Shown here: in pieces, positions 2,275-29,162 of the stretch
How positions within the stretch are numbered: position 1 is the first letter of the stretch
Layout: every line of letters starts with the position of its first letter
Source: Beroe forskalii
Lineage: Eukaryota > Ctenophora > Nuda > Beroida > Beroidae
Assembly (NCBI GenBank): GCA_011033025.1
Contig: WFMF01000050.1
Span: 372,001 to 436,000 of the forward strand
DNA length: 64,000 nucleotides
Direction of reading: 5' to 3'
The notes under the pieces: generated by a model
Told to the model about the DNA's origin: nothing
The model's input: only the letters and a program-made list of their open reading frames with translations
Databases searched by the model: none
Position numbers and translations under genes: made by a program

Positions 2275-2925
2275 CCTCTCAGTTACCATTAGTATCCACC
2301 CAGTTACCATTAGTATCCACCCAGTTACCATTAGTATCCACCCAGTTACCATTAGTATCCACCCAGTTACCATTAGTATCCACCCAGTTACCATTAGTAT
2401 CCACCCAGTTACCATTAGTATCCACCCAGTTACCATTAGTATCCACCCAGTTACCATTAGTATCCAGTTACCATTAGTATCCACCCAGTTACCATTAGTA
2501 TCCACCCAGTTACCATTAGTATCCACCCAGTTACCATTAGTATCACCCAGTTACCATTAGTATCCACCCAGTTACCATTAGTATCCACCCAGTTACCATT
2601 AGTATCCACCCAGTTACCATTAGTATCCACCCAGTTACCATTAGTTTCCACCCAGTTACCATTAGTATCCACCCAGTTACCATTAGTATCCACCCAGATA
2701 CCATTAGTATCCACCCAGTTACCATTAGTATCCACCCAGTTACCATAAGTATCCACCAAGTTACCATTAGTATCCACCCAGTTACCATTAGTATCCACCC
2801 AGTTACCATTAGTATCCACCCAGTTACCATTAGTATCCACCCAGTTACCATTAGTATCCACCCAGTTACCATTAGTATCCACCCAGTTACCATTAGTATC
2901 CACCCAGTTACCATAAGTATGCACG
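2275..2925. repeat. 21-bp minisatellite array (CAGTTACCATTAGTATCCACC)n
   Basis: About 31 nearly uniform copies of a 21-bp unit are present. Because 21 is a multiple of 3, minus-strand frames stay open for 105-155 codons (WILMVTG or VDTNGNW heptads). These frames have no other coding support and are rejected as genes. One unit is interrupted near 2460, where WILMVTG switches to VDTNGNW. Confidence 0.95.
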
Positions 2926-2991
2926 CAGTTATCCTGATGTCACGTGATAATGACATCACGTGACATATTACGTAGCATATCACGTGACCTC

Positions 2992-3238
2992 TAGTTCTAT
3001 CCAGTGCCGATTATATCCAGTGCTGATTATATCCAGAGCCGATTATATCCAGTGCCGATTTTATCCAGTGCCGATTTTATCCAGTGCCGTGTTAACCATT
3101 AATAAATCATAGTACATGCGCGGCTTTGTCACGTCAATTCTTCATCTTGAAATTATTAGTAAATATACGGCTAGTGTCCCATATAACGTTAACGCTGGGC
3201 TCTTCATTATCTATGATAATGACGTCAGTCAGAAAAAT
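2992..3238 (+). repeat. Left arm of outer inverted repeat (partner 9425-9658)
   Basis: The arm begins CTAGTTCTATC and then has about five degenerate copies of TATCCAGTGCCGATTA. It continues through an AT-rich stretch into GTGTCCCATATAACGTTAACG. The reverse complement of the whole block, including the TATCCAGTGCCGATT copies, occurs at 9425-9658. The two arms enclose 6.2 kb that holds the Kolobok element and four MITE copies. No clear target duplication flanks the arms. Confidence 0.8.
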
Positions 3239-3242: not shown

Positions 3243-3246
3243 TTAA

Positions 3247-3430
3247 AGGGGGAGTGAACTAAAAAATCTATATTCATGAATTTTCGATTTCATGATTTAT
3301 TCTGATAGTGAGCCAAGAAATATTAAGATTGCCGTTGGAACGAACTCTCTACCTAATTTAATACCGGAGATATAACGCGTCAAAAGTTAATTAGGTCGTG
3401 ACGTCACTATGCGTCAACTCAACTTGACTG
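3247..3430 (+). repeat. Kolobok left terminal inverted repeat
   Basis: The first 14 bp match the right end perfectly and weaker pairing continues to about 3430. The most conserved internal block is GTGACGTCACTATGCGTCA, which contains a palindromic CRE-like TGACGTCA. It may be a transposase or host-factor binding site; that role is inference. Confidence 0.75.
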
Positions 3431-3929
3431 CGCGGTGCTGTAGCCTGCAATACAGTACTGCTATTATAGAACCGTATTCAATACCTGTGGTCCTGTGACA
3501 TTGACAATCAGTGAAACACAAATATGAAGTAATTTAAGACCATTCAATTACTATGGTCTTAGTCTGACATGTTTATTTAAGTGTGTATTCTGTGCGATAC
3601 ATCTATACAATGCAATGTTTTCATAAAACATGAATACATCATTAACCTCTAACCAGACCCTTTTGACACACGATCAGTTCCAAATTATCGTTCAGTGTCC
3701 TGTTTTTTATTGTGAAATTGTGATTGCTTCAATTCATAAGAAGATAAGACACCTCTACTTGCTGCATTTTTGATTCTATAATCTTAAACAGGCGATTCTC
3801 ACAGCTCACTGGAATATTTGCTTCAGCTCTATTTAATGTCTAAGCTATGTCAGAAATACCGTAGATCCTATTTTCTATTAGCAAGATTATTGATAAATAA
3901 TACTTTAATAGTCATGCAGTTACTTTATT

Positions 3930-4598
3930 CTACATCTCTTGAAAAGTTAATTCCTCAATACAGCCATCGTATGAGAATCCTTTGTATTGTCCATTTTCCT
4001 CTGGGAAAGCATCACGTATTTTATTTACAACACATGAAGGGAGGGCTGCTCGTCTCCACTTCCCAAGCGGACGACCACACATAGCCAAGCTGATGAATGT
4101 TTTGTACGCTAAGTGACGAAATAGACTGTTATCAATCTCTTTCTCGTAAAATCTTTTCCTCTCTTTCATATCCGATATTGCCTGACCGAACAATTGCCGA
4201 TTGAACTGCAACCTTTTCACGTCCATTACTTCACGCTCAAACACTGGATTAAGAGTGACACATTCATATCCTTCCATGATATCTTGTAGTATTTCACTTT
4301 CTTGACAACAAAAACTTTCAACGGTCGTCGTCATCGTTTTGCACAGATTGCATGAGCAGTAAACGTCCACATTCAAGTTAGCATTTTCATGGTGAGCATA
4401 TGATTCTTCGTCGTCCTCAGTGTCGTCGTCAGTGTCGTATCCATCTGACGCCAACTCATCATCACTTGGGTGTGGAGATATTTCATGTGTAGGATCCAAG
4501 TCTAGATAGCTTGCCGGCACTGTGTCTTCTAGTTCCTCCTCGAGAACTCGTACCATCCGATCAACGTCCGCAGCATCGAGATTCGCAAATTCCTCCAT
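3930..4598 (-). CDS. P2X7-receptor C-terminal (ballast) domain-like protein carried by the Kolobok element
   Basis: This single-exon frame of 222 codons has an acidic, disordered N-terminal third (D/E-rich at residues 46-68). It is followed by a cysteine cluster C81-S-C-N-L-C86, then C97-C98 and C113, and a C-terminal block LPSCVVNKIRDAFPEENGQY (residues 187-206). That arrangement, CxCxxC...CC...C followed by LPxCxxxxIRxxFPxxxGxYxGF, is the hallmark of the P2X7 C-terminal 'ballast' domain (P2RX7_C), which binds zinc. There is no channel part or membrane segment, so this is the free-standing domain, as in many invertebrate 'P2X7-like' proteins. It is divergently arranged with the transposase, 104 bp apart, inside the same TTAA-bounded element, so it probably serves the transposon. 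Its biochemical role is unknown; DNA, RNA or nucleotide binding through the zinc cluster is only a guess. The Met at 4598 is the first in frame and gives a sensible acidic leader. Confidence 0.8.
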   Translation of the reverse strand: MEEFANLDAADVDRMVRVLEEELEDTVPASYLDLDPTHEISPHPSDDELASDGYDTDDDTEDDEESYAHHENANLNVDVYCSCNLCKTMTTTVESFCCQESEILQDIMEGYECVTLNPVFEREVMDVKRLQFNRQLFGQAISDMKERKRFYEKEIDNSLFRHLAYKTFISLAMCGRPLGKWRRAALPSCVVNKIRDAFPEENGQYKGFSYDGCIEELTFQEM

Positions 4599-4702
4599 AA
4601 AATCTGTAAATCTAAGATAGAAAGTTTAAATTTATATACAGTATTAGCTAATTAAAACTCAATATGTATTCAGTTCACAGGTAGATTGCAATCCAGTTAC
4701 AA
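4599..4702. promoter_or_regulatory. Putative bidirectional promoter of the Kolobok gene pair
   Basis: The 104 bp between the two divergent start codons is AT-rich with TTTATATACA near 4631-4640, a possible TATA element. Both genes have only this space for core promoter sequence unless their 5' UTRs overlap. No further motif is assigned. Confidence 0.4.
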
Positions 4703-7273
4703 ATGCCACATACATGTGGTGCATATGGCTGTTCGAAACGGAGTGGAATTGATAAAAGTGATCTACGTTCCTGGCTACGTTTCTACCCTTTTCCAGCAGA
4801 TCAGAAAATGAAGAAACTTTGGGCCAGCAGAGTGAAACGCAAAGATGGAGATGTTACAAAATACATGAAATTATGCTCAGACCACTTCCATGACTCTTGT
4901 TTTCAGAACATAACTCGTGCTAACATTTGCTATCATGATGGAATGAAGATACACCTGAAGACTTCAGCCATACCGAATACCGATATGAACACTGAATCTC
5001 CAGTACGTTTATCATCTGCTGAGTCCTCTACACCATGCCGAAAAAGGAGAAGAGTTGATTTAGACCGCGTTGAAGACATTGTTTCAGACAACAATAACGT
5101 TCTTATTCAGATAGGTTTGTTAGAACGGGAATGCGATGATGACCAATTGCTTGGGCCTGCCTCTCCTACACAAGACGACCCAGATCTGGATGTGCCTAAC
5201 TTTGTGCATCAGGAAACACAGACATCCAATGATGACTTAGGGCTCTCCTACATGAACCGAAGTGTTCAAACTGGTGATTCATTGGCTAATTTATTGTTAC
5301 GAGAAACCTCACCACCACAACTCCAGTCAGATCGTGTAGATTCAATGAACAATAATTGCCTCGATGACACAGACAGTGATTTCAGTGACGTAGATGATCC
5401 CACTGACCCCGATTACTCTTGTTCTGGAGTAGATGCAGTTATCAGCACTACACTCGATTCTTATGATTACATTATCATTTCGAGAGAAACCATTCAATCA
5501 CTGCTATCAAGGTGTGAAAGATGCGGATCATTCATAACCGATTCGACCACTTTTGTCCGAGGAGTATGTATCGGTGGAGAGTATACGTGTGCTATTGGTC
5601 ACAAAGTTAAATGGGGGTCTTCTGAAAAACATAATGGCAATTCAGAAATCAACACTCTTCTACCCGCAGCTTTCATCATGAATGGATGTGGATATGAGGA
5701 TATGAAATCAATCATGAACACTTTGAATATGCCCATATTATCAAATAAAATGTTCTATCAAAACATGAAGAAGTGGGTTTATCCAACGATCTGTAAAACT
5801 TTCATGACGCAGCAAACCCAGGTGATAGATGATCTGAAGAAGAAAGAAGGTCTTGTCATATCAGGTGATGGCCAGTTCGACTCCCCGGGACATTGTGCTA
5901 AGTACTGCGCCTGGACAGCATCTGAACAGTCATCTGGAAAAGTAATTGACTTTCAAGTGGTTCAGAAAGGTCAGTACACAGGGGAGCTGGAAAAGAAGGC
6001 TTGTAGAGAGACCTTGCTCAAAATAGAAGGTGAGAAAGGCCTCAAAATTAACAAGCTTGTCACTGATCGACACACTGGAATCGGCAAAATGATTCGGGAG
6101 GATTTCCGCACATTGATCACGAGGCTGATGTGTGGCATTTTGCTAAGTCGATCAAAAAAGAAGCTTCATAAGATAGCGAAGAAACACCCTGAAGTCAAAC
6201 CATGGATCAAAAGTATCATAAACCACTTCTGGTTCTGTTGTCAAAAGTGTAATGGGGATGGGGACCTCATGTTAGAACTTTGGCATTCTAGCCTCCTTCA
6301 TATGACCAACCAGCACACGTGGAAAAGACAGCATCTTCTGAAGAAGAAGTATGGATTATACATTGGGACAGGCAAGCCTTATCCTCGCCCATTTTCGTCA
6401 GTGAAAGGTTGTTTCCATCCTAGAATGACCAAAGCACAAAGCCGCTCCAAAGACTGGCTGGATGTTGACACGCCAGCTTTTGAAGCACTTGTCAAGCTAT
6501 TCACTAATACACGGCTTTGTAATGAAATGAAGATGTGCAAATCATTCATACACACAGGTGGCATCGAAAACTTGCACAGTGTGAAGAATAAGTTCCTACC
6601 CAAGAGGAAACATTTTTCAATGAATTCACACATTGTAATGCTGATGCTGGTGGCAATGGAGTATAATGATCACATAGATGCTCGGAAAGATGGAAAAGCC
6701 AAAGTTGGAAAATCAGTGGAGTTTTCTAAAGCTGCAGGTGATTATGTTCTAAAGAAGAAATATGTAAAAGATGCCCTCCCCAGGAAGCTGGAAATGATGA
6801 GCTCAATAAAGTCATCCTTGAAAAATGACCACAAATATGATCTCGAGAACTTACTGAAACCATACAAGATAAACCCTGTGCCAAAAAACACCATCCCTGC
6901 AGGGATTAAGAAGCCGACGGTTCAAGATCTATCCACTCAATTTAGCAAGTTTATGAGTGACAACATTGTTGTACCCCCTAGAACACCTGCATGCATTGAA
7001 GCGTCTGCATCAAAGAAAGGTAGGGGTCGAGGGCATAGTACTCGAGGATCAAGCCGTGGATCAAACCGTGGATCTACCCGTGGATCTACCCGTGGAACAA
7101 GCCGTGGATCTACCCGTGGATCAAGCCGTGGAACAAGCCGTGGATCTACCCGTGGATCTACCCGTGGAACAAGCCGTGGATCTACCCGTGGATCAAGCCG
7201 TGGAACAAGCCGTGGATCTACCCGTGGATCAAGCCGTGGATCTAATCGTGGATCAACTAGCGGAGGAAAATGA
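4703..7273 (+). CDS. THAP-domain DDE transposase of Kolobok type
   Basis: The frame has 856 codons. An N-terminal THAP zinc finger (residues 1-~85) shows C5-x4-C10, P31, W40 and C58-x2-H61-F62, for sequence-specific DNA binding at the element ends. A variable acidic linker follows, then CERCG at about 270 with a second Cys/His pair, and the catalytic core: SGDGQFDSPGH (D389/D393), TDRHTG (D455) and GIENLHS (E622), the acidic residues of an RNase H-like transposase. The fold should also carry a DxxH motif between D455 and E622. That motif (DVWHFAK) is present only in the +2 frame at 6118-6159, while the ORF itself reads a nonsense stretch at residues ~472-486. One missing base near 6116 and one extra base near 6160 compensate, leaving the ORF open but the motif destroyed. 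The C-terminus (773-856) is an RG/RGS/RGT-rich tail encoded by 15-bp repeats. The product would excise and reinsert the element at TTAA. This copy is probably inactive unless the shifts are sequencing errors. Confidence 0.88.
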   Translation: MPHTCGAYGCSKRSGIDKSDLRSWLRFYPFPADQKMKKLWASRVKRKDGDVTKYMKLCSDHFHDSCFQNITRANICYHDGMKIHLKTSAIPNTDMNTESPVRLSSAESSTPCRKRRRVDLDRVEDIVSDNNNVLIQIGLLERECDDDQLLGPASPTQDDPDLDVPNFVHQETQTSNDDLGLSYMNRSVQTGDSLANLLLRETSPPQLQSDRVDSMNNNCLDDTDSDFSDVDDPTDPDYSCSGVDAVISTTLDSYDYIIISRETIQSLLSRCERCGSFITDSTTFVRGVCIGGEYTCAIGHKVKWGSSEKHNGNSEINTLLPAAFIMNGCGYEDMKSIMNTLNMPILSNKMFYQNMKKWVYPTICKTFMTQQTQVIDDLKKKEGLVISGDGQFDSPGHCAKYCAWTASEQSSGKVIDFQVVQKGQYTGELEKKACRETLLKIEGEKGLKINKLVTDRHTGIGKMIREDFRTLITRLMCGILLSRSKKKLHKIAKKHPEVKPWIKSIINHFWFCCQKCNGDGDLMLELWHSSLLHMTNQHTWKRQHLLKKKYGLYIGTGKPYPRPFSSVKGCFHPRMTKAQSRSKDWLDVDTPAFEALVKLFTNTRLCNEMKMCKSFIHTGGIENLHSVKNKFLPKRKHFSMNSHIVMLMLVAMEYNDHIDARKDGKAKVGKSVEFSKAAGDYVLKKKYVKDALPRKLEMMSSIKSSLKNDHKYDLENLLKPYKINPVPKNTIPAGIKKPTVQDLSTQFSKFMSDNIVVPPRTPACIEASASKKGRGRGHSTRGSSRGSNRGSTRGSTRGTSRGSTRGSSRGTSRGSTRGSTRGTSRGSTRGSSRGTSRGSTRGSSRGSNRGSTSGGK
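7024..7262 (+). repeat. 15-bp coding repeat (CGTGGATCTACC/AAGC) for the RGS/RGT tail
   Basis: About fifteen in-frame copies of a 12-15 bp unit encode (S/T)RGS and (S/T)RGT. The unit alternates TCTACC, TCAAGC and ACAAGC variants in higher-order groups, which indicates expansion by slippage or unequal exchange. Arg-Gly-rich tails commonly bind nucleic acid nonspecifically. Confidence 0.85.
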
Positions 7274-7569
7274 TAGGAAATTTTAAAATCAGTTATCAGA
7301 CTTATATAATAGCTTTAAAAGTTGTATGTTTGCATGGTCAGTCGTGTTGATATACGTATAAAGTGCTAAATCTTTATGAGTTGATATTATACAATGAAAA
7401 GAACAGTGTATGCATTATTGCACTAAAAATGTGTAAGATACGATCGTATTTTGTTTTGTCTGCAAGATATAAAATGCATAATGCCAATTGTCAATGAAGA
7501 AGAAAGTATCAGCAACAAATTCAAATTACCTAAGCACACGAATAATTCACCTAGCTACAGCAGTTATTG

Positions 7570-7757
7570 GTATATGTTTGATATACGCGCGTATCAGACT
7601 GACGCATAGTGACGTCACAGCTCTAATTACATAAACGCCCCATATCTCGGATTGGATTACACTAGGAATCTCGTTTTTCCGGATAATTGATCCTTGATGA
7701 GCAATGATTGAGTGGGTAATGTGAAAGCATACCCTTAAAAATAAGTTCACTCCCCCT
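7570..7757 (-). repeat. Kolobok right terminal inverted repeat
   Basis: It ends with the complement of AGGGGGAGTGAACT next to TTAA. The subterminal region repeats the TGACGCATAGTGACGTCAC block of the left end in inverse orientation. Confidence 0.75.
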
Positions 7758-7820
7758 TTAAGCACATCAACTGCTTTAAAGGTTAGGGTTACGATCAGGA
7801 TAAGGTCAGGATTTGGGCTA

Positions 7821-25429: not shown

Positions 25430-28400
25430 GTGATAATTATCGATATATATCACTCCTTTATAGAACTACTGTACAGTGGCGAATTTATAGTATTATGATA
25501 ATGATACATGGAACCTGAAATTGGGGGTTAGTGTAGAAATAAATGAATAGGGATACAGCCAGCCGACACCGGCACGAACATTAAAGTAAGCAAGAAATAA
25601 AATTATATGTAAGGAATATTATATACGACGAACGAACACGTGATATATTACATCCTAATAGACAAATGACAGTCACTGGACCACCGAACGCTGACTCTTT
25701 ACAGACTAGCACAAGGACAGGGGCTAGAACTGAATAATCATATAAGGGAATATAAAACGAACTACCTAAATGAAATGCTAAGGGTTCGCGCCGAATAGCA
25801 CTTTTATGGCTATTTGACTAAAAATACAGCAATTTCTGAACAAAATCCGACGAAAAAATCCCAGTAAAATAAGAACAATCAATTTATAGTATATGGGGAA
25901 AAGGGGAATGTATATACGTAGGGGATAAGGGTGTTATAAATAACTATCATTCTGTATACTGCCAAATTAGTAAAACAGCTCGATATTTTTCCCTCTGGCT
26001 AAAAAATATCGATGCTACAGAAATGACTGTATTTATCAAAAGAATAACATATTGTATTTGTTCAGTTGCCAAACGTCAATCACAGTGAACTGCAAAGTGC
26101 ACCACTACACGACAGGTGATTCAGAAGATTGACAACTAGGCCAATTCAATATATTATACTTGTCAATTGCTACGTATAAAGAAATCTATTAAAAATAATT
26201 TAACTATCAAAACGCCTAAAAAAGTTAAATCTAATGAAAATTCAATAAACAAATAAATAGGTTACCTACCCTCCAAAATAAAATAAAAAATCCCGTGAAA
26301 ACAAATGCTCCTAAAAATAATTTAACACACGAGATCCTCTGAGGCATTCTTTTGTCGTCATACTCCCCAGGGCATGGACGTAACAATAAAAGCTGGTTAA
26401 ATTGAAGACATCCCCAGTTTCTCCTCTTCATCTTCGGCCAGCTGCTGCAGATCCACAAATCCGTTCTCCAACATCTCACATAATGTTGAAGTGGAAGCTT
26501 GCACCTTAGTGAGGCAGTCACTCACCATGTTAGAGGACTTCACCCAATGAACTGAGGTCCTTTCCTTCTCGTTGCTGATGACCTGCTTCATTTCAGCAAT
26601 TGTGACCCTGAGGAGTTTCTCTGTAACCAAATGATTGGAGTAAAGGGCTCTTCTCAACTGGATACTGTCTGTGAAAATCCTGATAGAGATCTTCTGTTTT
26701 CTGGGATCCTGGAATAACACCTCTTCCAGCATACTCCTGATGTAGTTGGCGTCTCCATTACAGTCAGTGAGGCTCAAACATTCTGCTGCAATAGTACTAT
26801 GTACCACACGGTGTACTTTCTTGCTCTTCCAGTTGAGTAAGGAGCATTTTCCATCCTTGTCTGCCAGACATATTAGGTAGCCAGCACCACTGCTTACCTT
26901 GTCGTTGCAGTTGTTGAGGGATGCATCGCAGAATGCCAAAATCTGGAGGCTATTTTCGTCGAGTTTGGGAAAGAGAATGTGGTCCAATCCTGACTGGATC
27001 TTTGTCACCACTTTATTGAGAGATTTCAAGTCCTTAACTGTGGGGCTTTGAGATGCTAACGATGTGCTGTAGGCATCATAGGATATGTCAGGCCGAGATT
27101 GATGAGCCAACCAGTTTATCTTACCAAGCAGCATCTGGTAAGACTTCTTCTCTGAATGATCCAGAATCCTTTCATTATCTCTCATTAGACCAGAAGCTAG
27201 CCTAATTGGCTCTATATTCTTGGCAAATGCTTTCTGCTCTATTTTTATTCCATCTGCGTTCTGATCCAAGGAAATACCCACGTAGTCAAAGGTTGTTCCA
27301 TTTTGACTGCTAATGGAGTATTTTTCAGTGAGCTTCTCAATGACTTCTGTTATGAATCTCTCATTTCCAGCAAACAGAAAGTCGTCGACGTGTGAGACTA
27401 GCATCCCAATCAAGTCATCTTTGTTGTAGAAGCAAAACAAAGCAGGATCCAGGATCGATTCCTTACAACCAACACTTAGAAGTTCTGACTTCAATGACTT
27501 ATACCAGTTGAATGCTGCATCCCTCAAGCCATACACTGGCTTCTTAACTAGCCAGATGATCCCTTTCTTCTTAATGTCTGATGGGGGCTTGAGGTACAAT
27601 TTGCGCTGCATGTTGTCACTCTGCAAGAAAGCAGCTTTAATGTCCAGGGACTGTATATTCCAGGTCTTCATAGCTGCAATGGTCAAAAACAGTCGTTGAG
27701 ACGTCTTGTCGGCAGTTGGGGCATCACTCTGAAGAAACTGGGCTTCCTCAAATCCTCTGGCCACTAACCTAGCCTTGACACGGCCATCGTCCTTTTTATT
27801 CACAATCCATCTACTGGAGATGATTGGAACAGTCATGTCACGGTCTTCTTCTTTGATCTCTTCGTAAACACCAAAGTCTATGAAATTCTTCAGCTCATTG
27901 TCTTTAGCTTCTTGTATCTTGGTTAGCAACTCCTTGTCTGGAAACTCTGTGAAGAGTATTTGGTTATCCTGTTGGGTAGACAGCAAGGTTTCATCAGGTA
28001 CAAGTTTTTCTAACTCATCCAATCTATCAGCAAAAACTGATAAGTCCTTTCCATCACTATCTTGGATGTTGTAACGGTTCTTGTTAACCCCTTTAGCTGT
28101 TCCTGCAGGTCCTAAAACTGTCCCACTGTTCCATGATTTTTCACCTGACTTCTTGTAGCGAATGCTGTCTCCTCCCTTCAACACAAATCTAGCCTTCTTC
28201 TTATCCTCTCTCACTGGTGTCCAGCGGTCTGAGCTAAAGGTTTCTGCAGCATTTTCTTTAGGAGTAGTAACATGCCTGATTCCTTCCGCAGCATTTTCTT
28301 CAGGACTATTGAAATGCCTGCTTTCCTCCACAGGTTCATCATTGGGGAGGTTTGCTTCTGTTACTTGAGGATTACTATCCGGTGTGTCATCTTCATCTTC

Positions 28401-29030
28401 ACTAGAAGATTCCTCTTCACAGTTAGCACTCTGAATGGTGTTTCTTCTCTCATTGCTCTGTTGTGTCTGGCTGCTATCTTCTAAGAGTTGATCTGAGTTC
28501 ACTTCTTCATCAGCCCTGGTCTGCAAGATGAGCTTTGAGGGGTGTACTCTGACAAATGAACCACCGTGTTTAACCAAAACCAGCTTCTTGTATTGGCCGA
28601 TCACGATTCCAGGACCATGCCAAGTTGTGTCTCTAATGCCTGTTCGGTAATATACTCTGTCACCTGCAAAGTACTGACATTCATAGGCTTGATAAACACG
28701 TCCTTTGAGTGCTCTGGCTAATCTATCTGATGCCTGTGCCTCCAAGAAAGCTTTTCTAGCCTCATGCATGGCGTTTAAGTTCGAAGCAACAATCTCACTG
28801 GATGTTCTTCTCTCAATCTGACCCAGGTTGATTTTAGAATCGTCCAATCCTGGTATCTTTGGGTTGTATCCCAACACGAGCTGCATTGGAGAGAATCCAT
28901 ATACATTGCTCATGCTGTTCTTTGCTTGGAGTGCCCAACACAGTGCAGTGGCTGATGAGCACTGAGTCTCTTCCTTAATCTTGAGAGTCATTTCAGCAAG
29001 TATGCCATTGTGACGTTCTACAACACCATT
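25430..29030. repeat. Left core arm of large inverted duplication
   Basis: This is the reverse complement of 30818-35165 through the copia pol and about 1 kb of flanking DNA. The right arm differs by scattered small indels and the Helitron at 33927-34763. The 1.8-kb centre (29030-30817) is unpaired. Confidence 0.9.
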
Positions 29031-29162
29031 GCTGAATGGCGAGAAGGCAGCAGTAGTCTTCATGTTGATGTTTAGGTTTTGGCACATGTCCAAGAAGTCC
29101 TTGTTGCAGAACTCTCGCCCTCCAGAGGTTGGGCAATCTTCTAACCTTGTCTTTGACAACAC
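26397..29162 (-). CDS. Copia-type retrotransposon Pol (integrase C-part, reverse transcriptase, RNase H)
   Basis: One uninterrupted frame covers 921 codons. Visible in order: the end of the integrase core (FSNGVVERHNG near residue 45), the integrase C-terminal region with TWHGPG (~180), an acidic linker, and the copia reverse transcriptase. The RT shows RWIVNKK (~450), KARLVARGFEE, DIKAAFLQSD, PVYGLRDAAFNWY and the catalytic SHVDDFL (VDD ~592-594). RNase H follows with FCDAS (~742), AAECLS and FTDS (~832). The N-terminal half of integrase, protease and gag of the copia element are missing: at about 29130 the sequence switches to a gypsy element, so the first ~10 codons and the Met belong to gypsy DNA. 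A purine-rich tract near 26400-26420 (minus strand) could be the polypurine tract. The frame is intact but the element is 5'-truncated. Confidence 0.9.
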   Translation of the reverse strand: MLSKTRLEDCPTSGGREFCNKDFLDMCQNLNINMKTTAAFSPFSNGVVERHNGILAEMTLKIKEETQCSSATALCWALQAKNSMSNVYGFSPMQLVLGYNPKIPGLDDSKINLGQIERRTSSEIVASNLNAMHEARKAFLEAQASDRLARALKGRVYQAYECQYFAGDRVYYRTGIRDTTWHGPGIVIGQYKKLVLVKHGGSFVRVHPSKLILQTRADEEVNSDQLLEDSSQTQQSNERRNTIQSANCEEESSSEDEDDTPDSNPQVTEANLPNDEPVEESRHFNSPEENAAEGIRHVTTPKENAAETFSSDRWTPVREDKKKARFVLKGGDSIRYKKSGEKSWNSGTVLGPAGTAKGVNKNRYNIQDSDGKDLSVFADRLDELEKLVPDETLLSTQQDNQILFTEFPDKELLTKIQEAKDNELKNFIDFGVYEEIKEEDRDMTVPIISSRWIVNKKDDGRVKARLVARGFEEAQFLQSDAPTADKTSQRLFLTIAAMKTWNIQSLDIKAAFLQSDNMQRKLYLKPPSDIKKKGIIWLVKKPVYGLRDAAFNWYKSLKSELLSVGCKESILDPALFCFYNKDDLIGMLVSHVDDFLFAGNERFITEVIEKLTEKYSISSQNGTTFDYVGISLDQNADGIKIEQKAFAKNIEPIRLASGLMRDNERILDHSEKKSYQMLLGKINWLAHQSRPDISYDAYSTSLASQSPTVKDLKSLNKVVTKIQSGLDHILFPKLDENSLQILAFCDASLNNCNDKVSSGAGYLICLADKDGKCSLLNWKSKKVHRVVHSTIAAECLSLTDCNGDANYIRSMLEEVLFQDPRKQKISIRIFTDSIQLRRALYSNHLVTEKLLRVTIAEMKQVISNEKERTSVHWVKSSNMVSDCLTKVQASTSTLCEMLENGFVDLQQLAEDEEEKLGMSSI

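Follow-up and report, generated by a model that had tools for sequence, protein, structure and literature searches.

A Kolobok transposon of Beroe forskalii that carries a free-standing P2X7 ballast-like gene beside its THAP/DDE transposase

Why does a mobile element carry the ballast domain otherwise known from the tail of the P2X7 receptor, and what might that domain do for the element? The question is raised by a locus in the window, as we call the whole 64,000-nucleotide stretch of Beroe forskalii DNA analysed here. The first-pass annotation had described a TTAA-flanked element with perfect 14-bp ends and two head-to-head genes, one for a THAP/DDE transposase and one for a 222-residue protein, and this description proved correct by coordinate check, open reading frame list and Pfam. 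The element occupies 3243..7761, and its inverted ends are complementary at 18/18 positions including TTAA (14 bp without it). The two genes, transposase and KolX, diverge from a 104-bp gap that is presumably a shared promoter. The features are as follows.

3243..3246, left TTAA target-site duplication (basis: sequence; joined flanks match related repeat copies)
3247..3260, plus strand, left terminal inverted repeat, 14 bp (as an 18-mer with TTAA, 25 exact copies genome-wide)
3398..3416, plus strand, left subterminal inverted repeat, 19 bp, with TGACGTCA (inverted-repeat comparison)
3930..4598, minus strand, KolX gene, 222 aa, acidic N-terminus and P2X7 ballast-like C-terminal domain (ORF, Pfam, PDB sequence, fold)
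4599..4702, gap between the divergent genes, 104 bp (sequence only)
4703..7273, plus strand, transposase ORF, 856 aa, THAP finger, DDE residues and RG-repeat tail (ORF list, Pfam, alignment)
7600..7618, minus strand, right subterminal inverted repeat, 19 bp (inverted-repeat comparison)
7744..7757, minus strand, right terminal inverted repeat, 14 bp (inverted-repeat comparison)
7758..7761, right TTAA target-site duplication (basis: sequence; joined-flank alignment)

The flanks of the element belong to a dispersed repeat. After fusion with a single TTAA, they aligned over the joint with five other repeat copies in the window, one of which adjoins the element (identities 158/181, 83/100, 77/92, 79/100 and 69/88, with small gaps in each), and one of the five has TTAA itself there. 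As the joined flanks align across the joint to related repeats, the element was inserted there with duplication of TTAA. A second inverted pair of 19 bp, also perfect, lies about 155 bp inward of the left end and 143 bp inward of the right end, and within it is the palindrome TGACGTCA, which we take to be the consensus of an ATF/CREB site. Just left of the element, short tandem repeats (a 16-bp unit among them) occupy window positions 2457-3100; elsewhere in the window, at 26397-29162, a 921-residue frame was recognised by eye as resembling a copia-type retrotransposon polyprotein.

The element ends, 5'-AG ... CT-3', agree with the 5'-RR and YY-3' ends described for Kolobok (PMC9587614). With these ends, the TTAA target duplication and a second gene bearing a ballast domain, the element belongs to the Kolobok superfamily of cut-and-paste DNA transposons and is of the Kol0 type. 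The other TTAA superfamily, piggyBac (PMC9587614), was ruled out by the RR/YY ends and by the Pfam matches to THAP and a Mutator-like transposase. In the account of Kojima and Bao (2022; PMC9587614), Kol0 families encode KolX, which resembles P2X7 residues 476-595, and P2X7 arose by fusion with KolX. The general idea behind a transposon-borne ballast is therefore already published, with the KolX-P2X7 link in print since 2022, and the window's element is a further, well-confirmed example with added detail. As described there, Kol0 of the Kolobok-1_XT type shares with it the TTAA, the RR/YY ends, a DDE transposase and, as second gene, KolX, whose product has seven cysteines and resembles the P2X7 ballast; the window's element differs in representing another family, and in its DxxH signature being out of frame. 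Ballast proteins had also been traced across animals, with no transposon link (Rump et al., 2020; PMC7016195). Like KolX, nanor and the other metazoan ZCD proteins of that paper are short, with a C-terminal ballast and the same cysteine pattern, but they are not identified there as transposon genes; a tick protein with a 'TAHP' domain (the paper's spelling) ahead of its ballast is also reported there.

The assignment of the 222-residue protein to the P2X7 ballast had come from family knowledge, and it is now backed by profile, PDB sequence and predicted fold, which are all concordant. The proposed profile search matched P2RX7_C at E = 2e-19 (70.7 bits against a Pfam cut-off of 23.5 bits), and the structure prediction that had been suggested with it, with structures ranked by Foldseek, gave a predicted fold agreeing with the ballast. 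This agreement rules out a chance resemblance, and it also upholds the claim that a mobile element carries a ballast gene as an accessory. A P2X receptor gene was ruled out as well, since P2RX7_C was the sole family over its cut-off; in contrast to the ballast of P2X7 receptors (PDB 8v4s, 6u9v, 9e3m and others), KolX is free-standing, with no channel domain matched. Residues 1-70 of KolX hold 26 D/E and 2 K/R, and the seven zinc cysteines (C81, C83, C86, C97, C98, C113 and C189) are all present, forming a predicted zinc site. Across 35 aligned KolX rows, each of these cysteines is kept in between 31/33 (lowest) and 34/34 (highest) of the covering rows. The public protein searches returned 7, 23 and 12 hits, few for the depth wanted, and all 18 proteins in the KolX alignment match P2RX7_C, having been gathered by homology and hence not being independent.

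In Pfam, the transposase matched THAP (E = 2.7e-10) and the Mutator-like transposase (E = 2.4e-8), and a Xenopus laevis THAP protein was among the hits of its profile (P0033, E 1.5e-91). The catalytic layout had been called directly visible, which holds for the DDE triad: D389, D455 and E622 are in place and conserved in the aligned rows, and on family knowledge, rather than a structure model of the transposase, we take them to be the catalytic acids. It does not hold for the C/DxxH signature expected between the second D and the E, which lies outside the window's frame because of single-base length differences that may be assembly errors. DxxH was found in 22 of the 25 aligned transposase rows, the two other rows without it being fragments that do not reach that region, and the sister copies C203 and C247 carry it in open frames. 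The window copy is thus probably either inactive or affected by assembly errors in this region. The residues of the THAP finger (C5, C10, C58 and H61 as C2CH, with P31, W40 and F62) are all present, as are H533, H538, C570 and H572, which we regard as an H2CH zinc finger, both under the definitions of PMC6004289. At window positions 7003-7290, a 12-bp tandem repeat encodes the RG-rich tail of the transposase, with 20 K/R and no D/E. The tail sets the window's row apart, as no RG tail was seen among the 24 remaining rows of the alignment (the C-terminus is missing from about seven of them). For this reason, a handshake between the acidic tail of KolX and the basic tail of the transposase is unlikely to be general.

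With one mismatch allowed for the 18-base end and for a reversed-pattern control alike, the end occurred 25 times in the 216-Mb genome, every time exactly, against one occurrence of the control; by our count they make up ten facing pairs, with five ends left single. Long copies are found at three loci, the window, C203 and C247. C203, which has one exact end only, is identical to the window at 4385/4422 aligned bases (99.2%), and C247 at 4389/4417 (99.4%), gaps excluded. Neither of the two has an uninterrupted transposase in the assembly. KolX, too, is interrupted in C247, and in C203 it is split close to its N-terminus; that near-identical copies differ by so many short length changes hints at assembly noise. 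The check on whether both genes always occur together found them head to head in all three long copies (with frames broken in two), but not in the short elements with the same ends. These are seven facing pairs, 1.62-1.94 kb apart, which share with the window the end stretches alone (74-86% identical), and a search of all seven sequences found neither KolX nor transposase in any. Their 19-bp arms are exact on one side in seven and on the other in five, with TGACGTCA at both ends in seven. The remaining facing pair, on C312, has its TTAA pair 8.1 kb apart and is excluded from the counts of gene content. The long stretches between ends on C132 and C836 yielded neither a KolX nor a transposase match. 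KolX differs from the window's at four and six substitutions in the long copies (dN/dS 0.74 and 1.24), too few for selection on KolX to be demonstrable between the three. In a transposon family with a free-standing ballast, and with few substitutions separating its long copies, the original activity of the domain could be assayed off-channel.

The window's KolX, used as a query, gave 85 matches, which were grouped by hand into 81 loci, and the transposase query, with 53 of 568 candidates scored, gave at least 64 matches, reduced by hand to 43 entries. The genome-wide co-occurrence that the first-pass annotation had put forward as a check thus stands at a minimum: for at least 26 of the 81 KolX loci, a transposase match lies no more than 6 kb away. 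Sixteen of the 26 are divergent; in the ten others (C694, C1042, C254, C603, C224, C493, C305, C196, C469 and C490) KolX lies downstream of the transposase and is read in the same direction. The Pfam search added one further pair, on C380. Beside the KolX loci that stand alone, a second transposase query, with 60 of 149 candidates scored, showed no transposase among the matches listed.

Trees were built from 35 KolX rows and 25 transposase rows, three of the latter without a nearby KolX. From the 26 pairs, 22 entered the comparison, C247 and C112 being unused and C203 and C558:732730 having no transposase row. Path distances in the two trees were strongly correlated (Mantel r 0.879, p 0.0001), and r was 0.865 for the 17 pairs left after close copies were dropped; KolX and transposase have been inherited together. 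In the transposase tree, where the window row has a long branch and four rows are filled to less than half, a single branch (99/97) separates the 10 co-directional from the 12 divergent rows, corresponding to one layout change. One change is likewise needed in the KolX tree, the relevant forks of which are weak. The main-text account of Kol0 in PMC9587614 makes no mention of such a layout split.

Considering these results, we have proposed a plausible model. The THAP/DDE transposase would recognise the inverted ends and insert at TTAA, as family knowledge suggests and in keeping with the observed insertion, and KolX would be a short protein that combines an acidic tail with a predicted dinuclear-zinc ballast domain of P2X7 type. 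We give a probability of roughly 60% to KolX being a dedicated partner of the transposase that helps to assemble the transposition complex or to regulate it. This reading is based on the structure and insertion of the element, the predicted fold, the conservation of the zinc site, the congruent trees and the presence of both genes in the three long copies; from these we infer both a physical partnership with the transposase and a step in transposition at which KolX would act. The co-inheritance also lends indirect support to the role in transposition suggested in the first-pass annotation.

Several observations count against a partner of the transposase. Of the 17 listed transposase loci whose frame reaches 690 aa or more (some with internal stops), 14 have KolX within 6 kb, but the three at C271, C370 and C914:258523 gave no KolX match within that distance. 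Conversely, among the matches listed, no transposase lies within 6 kb of 55 of the 81 KolX loci, many of which are short or interrupted. The uninformative dN/dS values and a TTAA element carrying KolX alone must be set on the same side. This element, 1.77 kb long with 23-bp inverted ends (for example L011:544-2310), has no transposase gene; a search allowing up to two mismatches gave 70 occurrences of its end (control 0), and four other stretches bounded by this end (L070, L071, L075 and L076) gave no KolX match. Seven KolX-only copies were examined (C181, C196, C295 twice, C1112, C159 and C272), and they are 93.1-99.3% identical to the copy at C295:24168 in six comparisons. That these copies spread while lacking their own transposase gene, that the KolX frame is open in four of them (155-235 aa) and split in three, and that lone KolX loci are many would suit a captured host gene that hitch-hikes with the element and takes no part in its movement. 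We consider this improbable, because the zinc site persists across many diverged families, the two trees are congruent, and a passenger should be easily lost, as in the short elements.

Apart from a dedicated transposase partner, KolX might act on the host side, shielding the element, altering transcription or countering silencing outside the transposition complex. The acidic N-terminus would suit such a role, as would the transcription role hypothesised for the related zebrafish nanor and cited by Rump et al. (PMC7016195). Co-inheritance with the transposase over diverged families fits a direct partner better, without excluding a host role, and we regard the host-side alternative as rather unlikely, less so than the hitch-hiker.

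According to PMC9859053, it is unknown what the zinc and GTP/GDP sites do in the P2X7 ballast. One more reading concerns the guanine nucleotide. The P element transposase, like the window's, combines a THAP finger with an RNase H-type DDE enzyme and needs GTP, but it has its GTP-binding domain inside the enzyme, whereas the window's element encodes a separate ballast protein (PMC7776569). KolX could accordingly be a guanine-nucleotide-dependent cofactor acting in trans, doing for the Kol0 THAP transposase the job of that built-in domain, with the P2X7 guanosine pocket inherited from KolX. Of the rat guanosine-site residues R546, H547, R574, R578 and K583 (PMC7016195), the equivalents R161, H162 and R195 are present in the window's KolX, and the receptor's R574 and K583 are replaced by V191 and E200. 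Over the 35 rows, R546 is kept in 35/35, H547 in 24/35 and R578 in 34/34, and R574 and K583 in 0/34 each. The two arginines kept in every covering row, the P2X7 pocket and the GTP need of the P element transposase led us to this reading; with two of five contact residues never kept, and the P element transposase called unique in using GTP (PMC7776569), we hold it to be very improbable.

A transposon source of the P2X7 domain, which the first-pass annotation had suggested, is the published view (PMC9587614) and thus not new, and our tree left its direction undecided. P2X7 groups with fish and tick proteins, one metagenome protein and the ballast of a Beroe frame on C697 (81/79 and 93/83 support), on long branches and with a midpoint root; a test of three groupings rejected none (p-AU 0.157, 0.176 and 0.141), so neither the direction of transfer nor the source of the P2X7 tail is settled by the tree. 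It is possible, if doubtful, that Kolobok picked up its ballast from an old host gene, and that P2X7 took its tail from this host gene and not from the transposon, which would be compatible with the other readings. The tree grouping itself, the C697 frame and the linkage of ballast genes to two markers across invertebrates reported by Rump et al. (PMC7016195) point this way, against which stand the same long branches, midpoint root and unrejected groupings (p-AU 0.141-0.176) and the argument of Kojima and Bao that KolX was the source (PMC9587614). The frame at C697:22420-24591 (L061:121-2292) is open over 724 residues and ends in a full ballast (residues 575-720, 64.7 bits), with no transposase in the 3.1 kb examined nor on C697 among the matches listed, and with imperfect inverted repeats alone (71-74%). 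From these features it is likely a host gene, which could be either an old animal ballast gene or a domesticated KolX. Upstream of it, frames resembling WD repeats and a sulfatase were read by eye.
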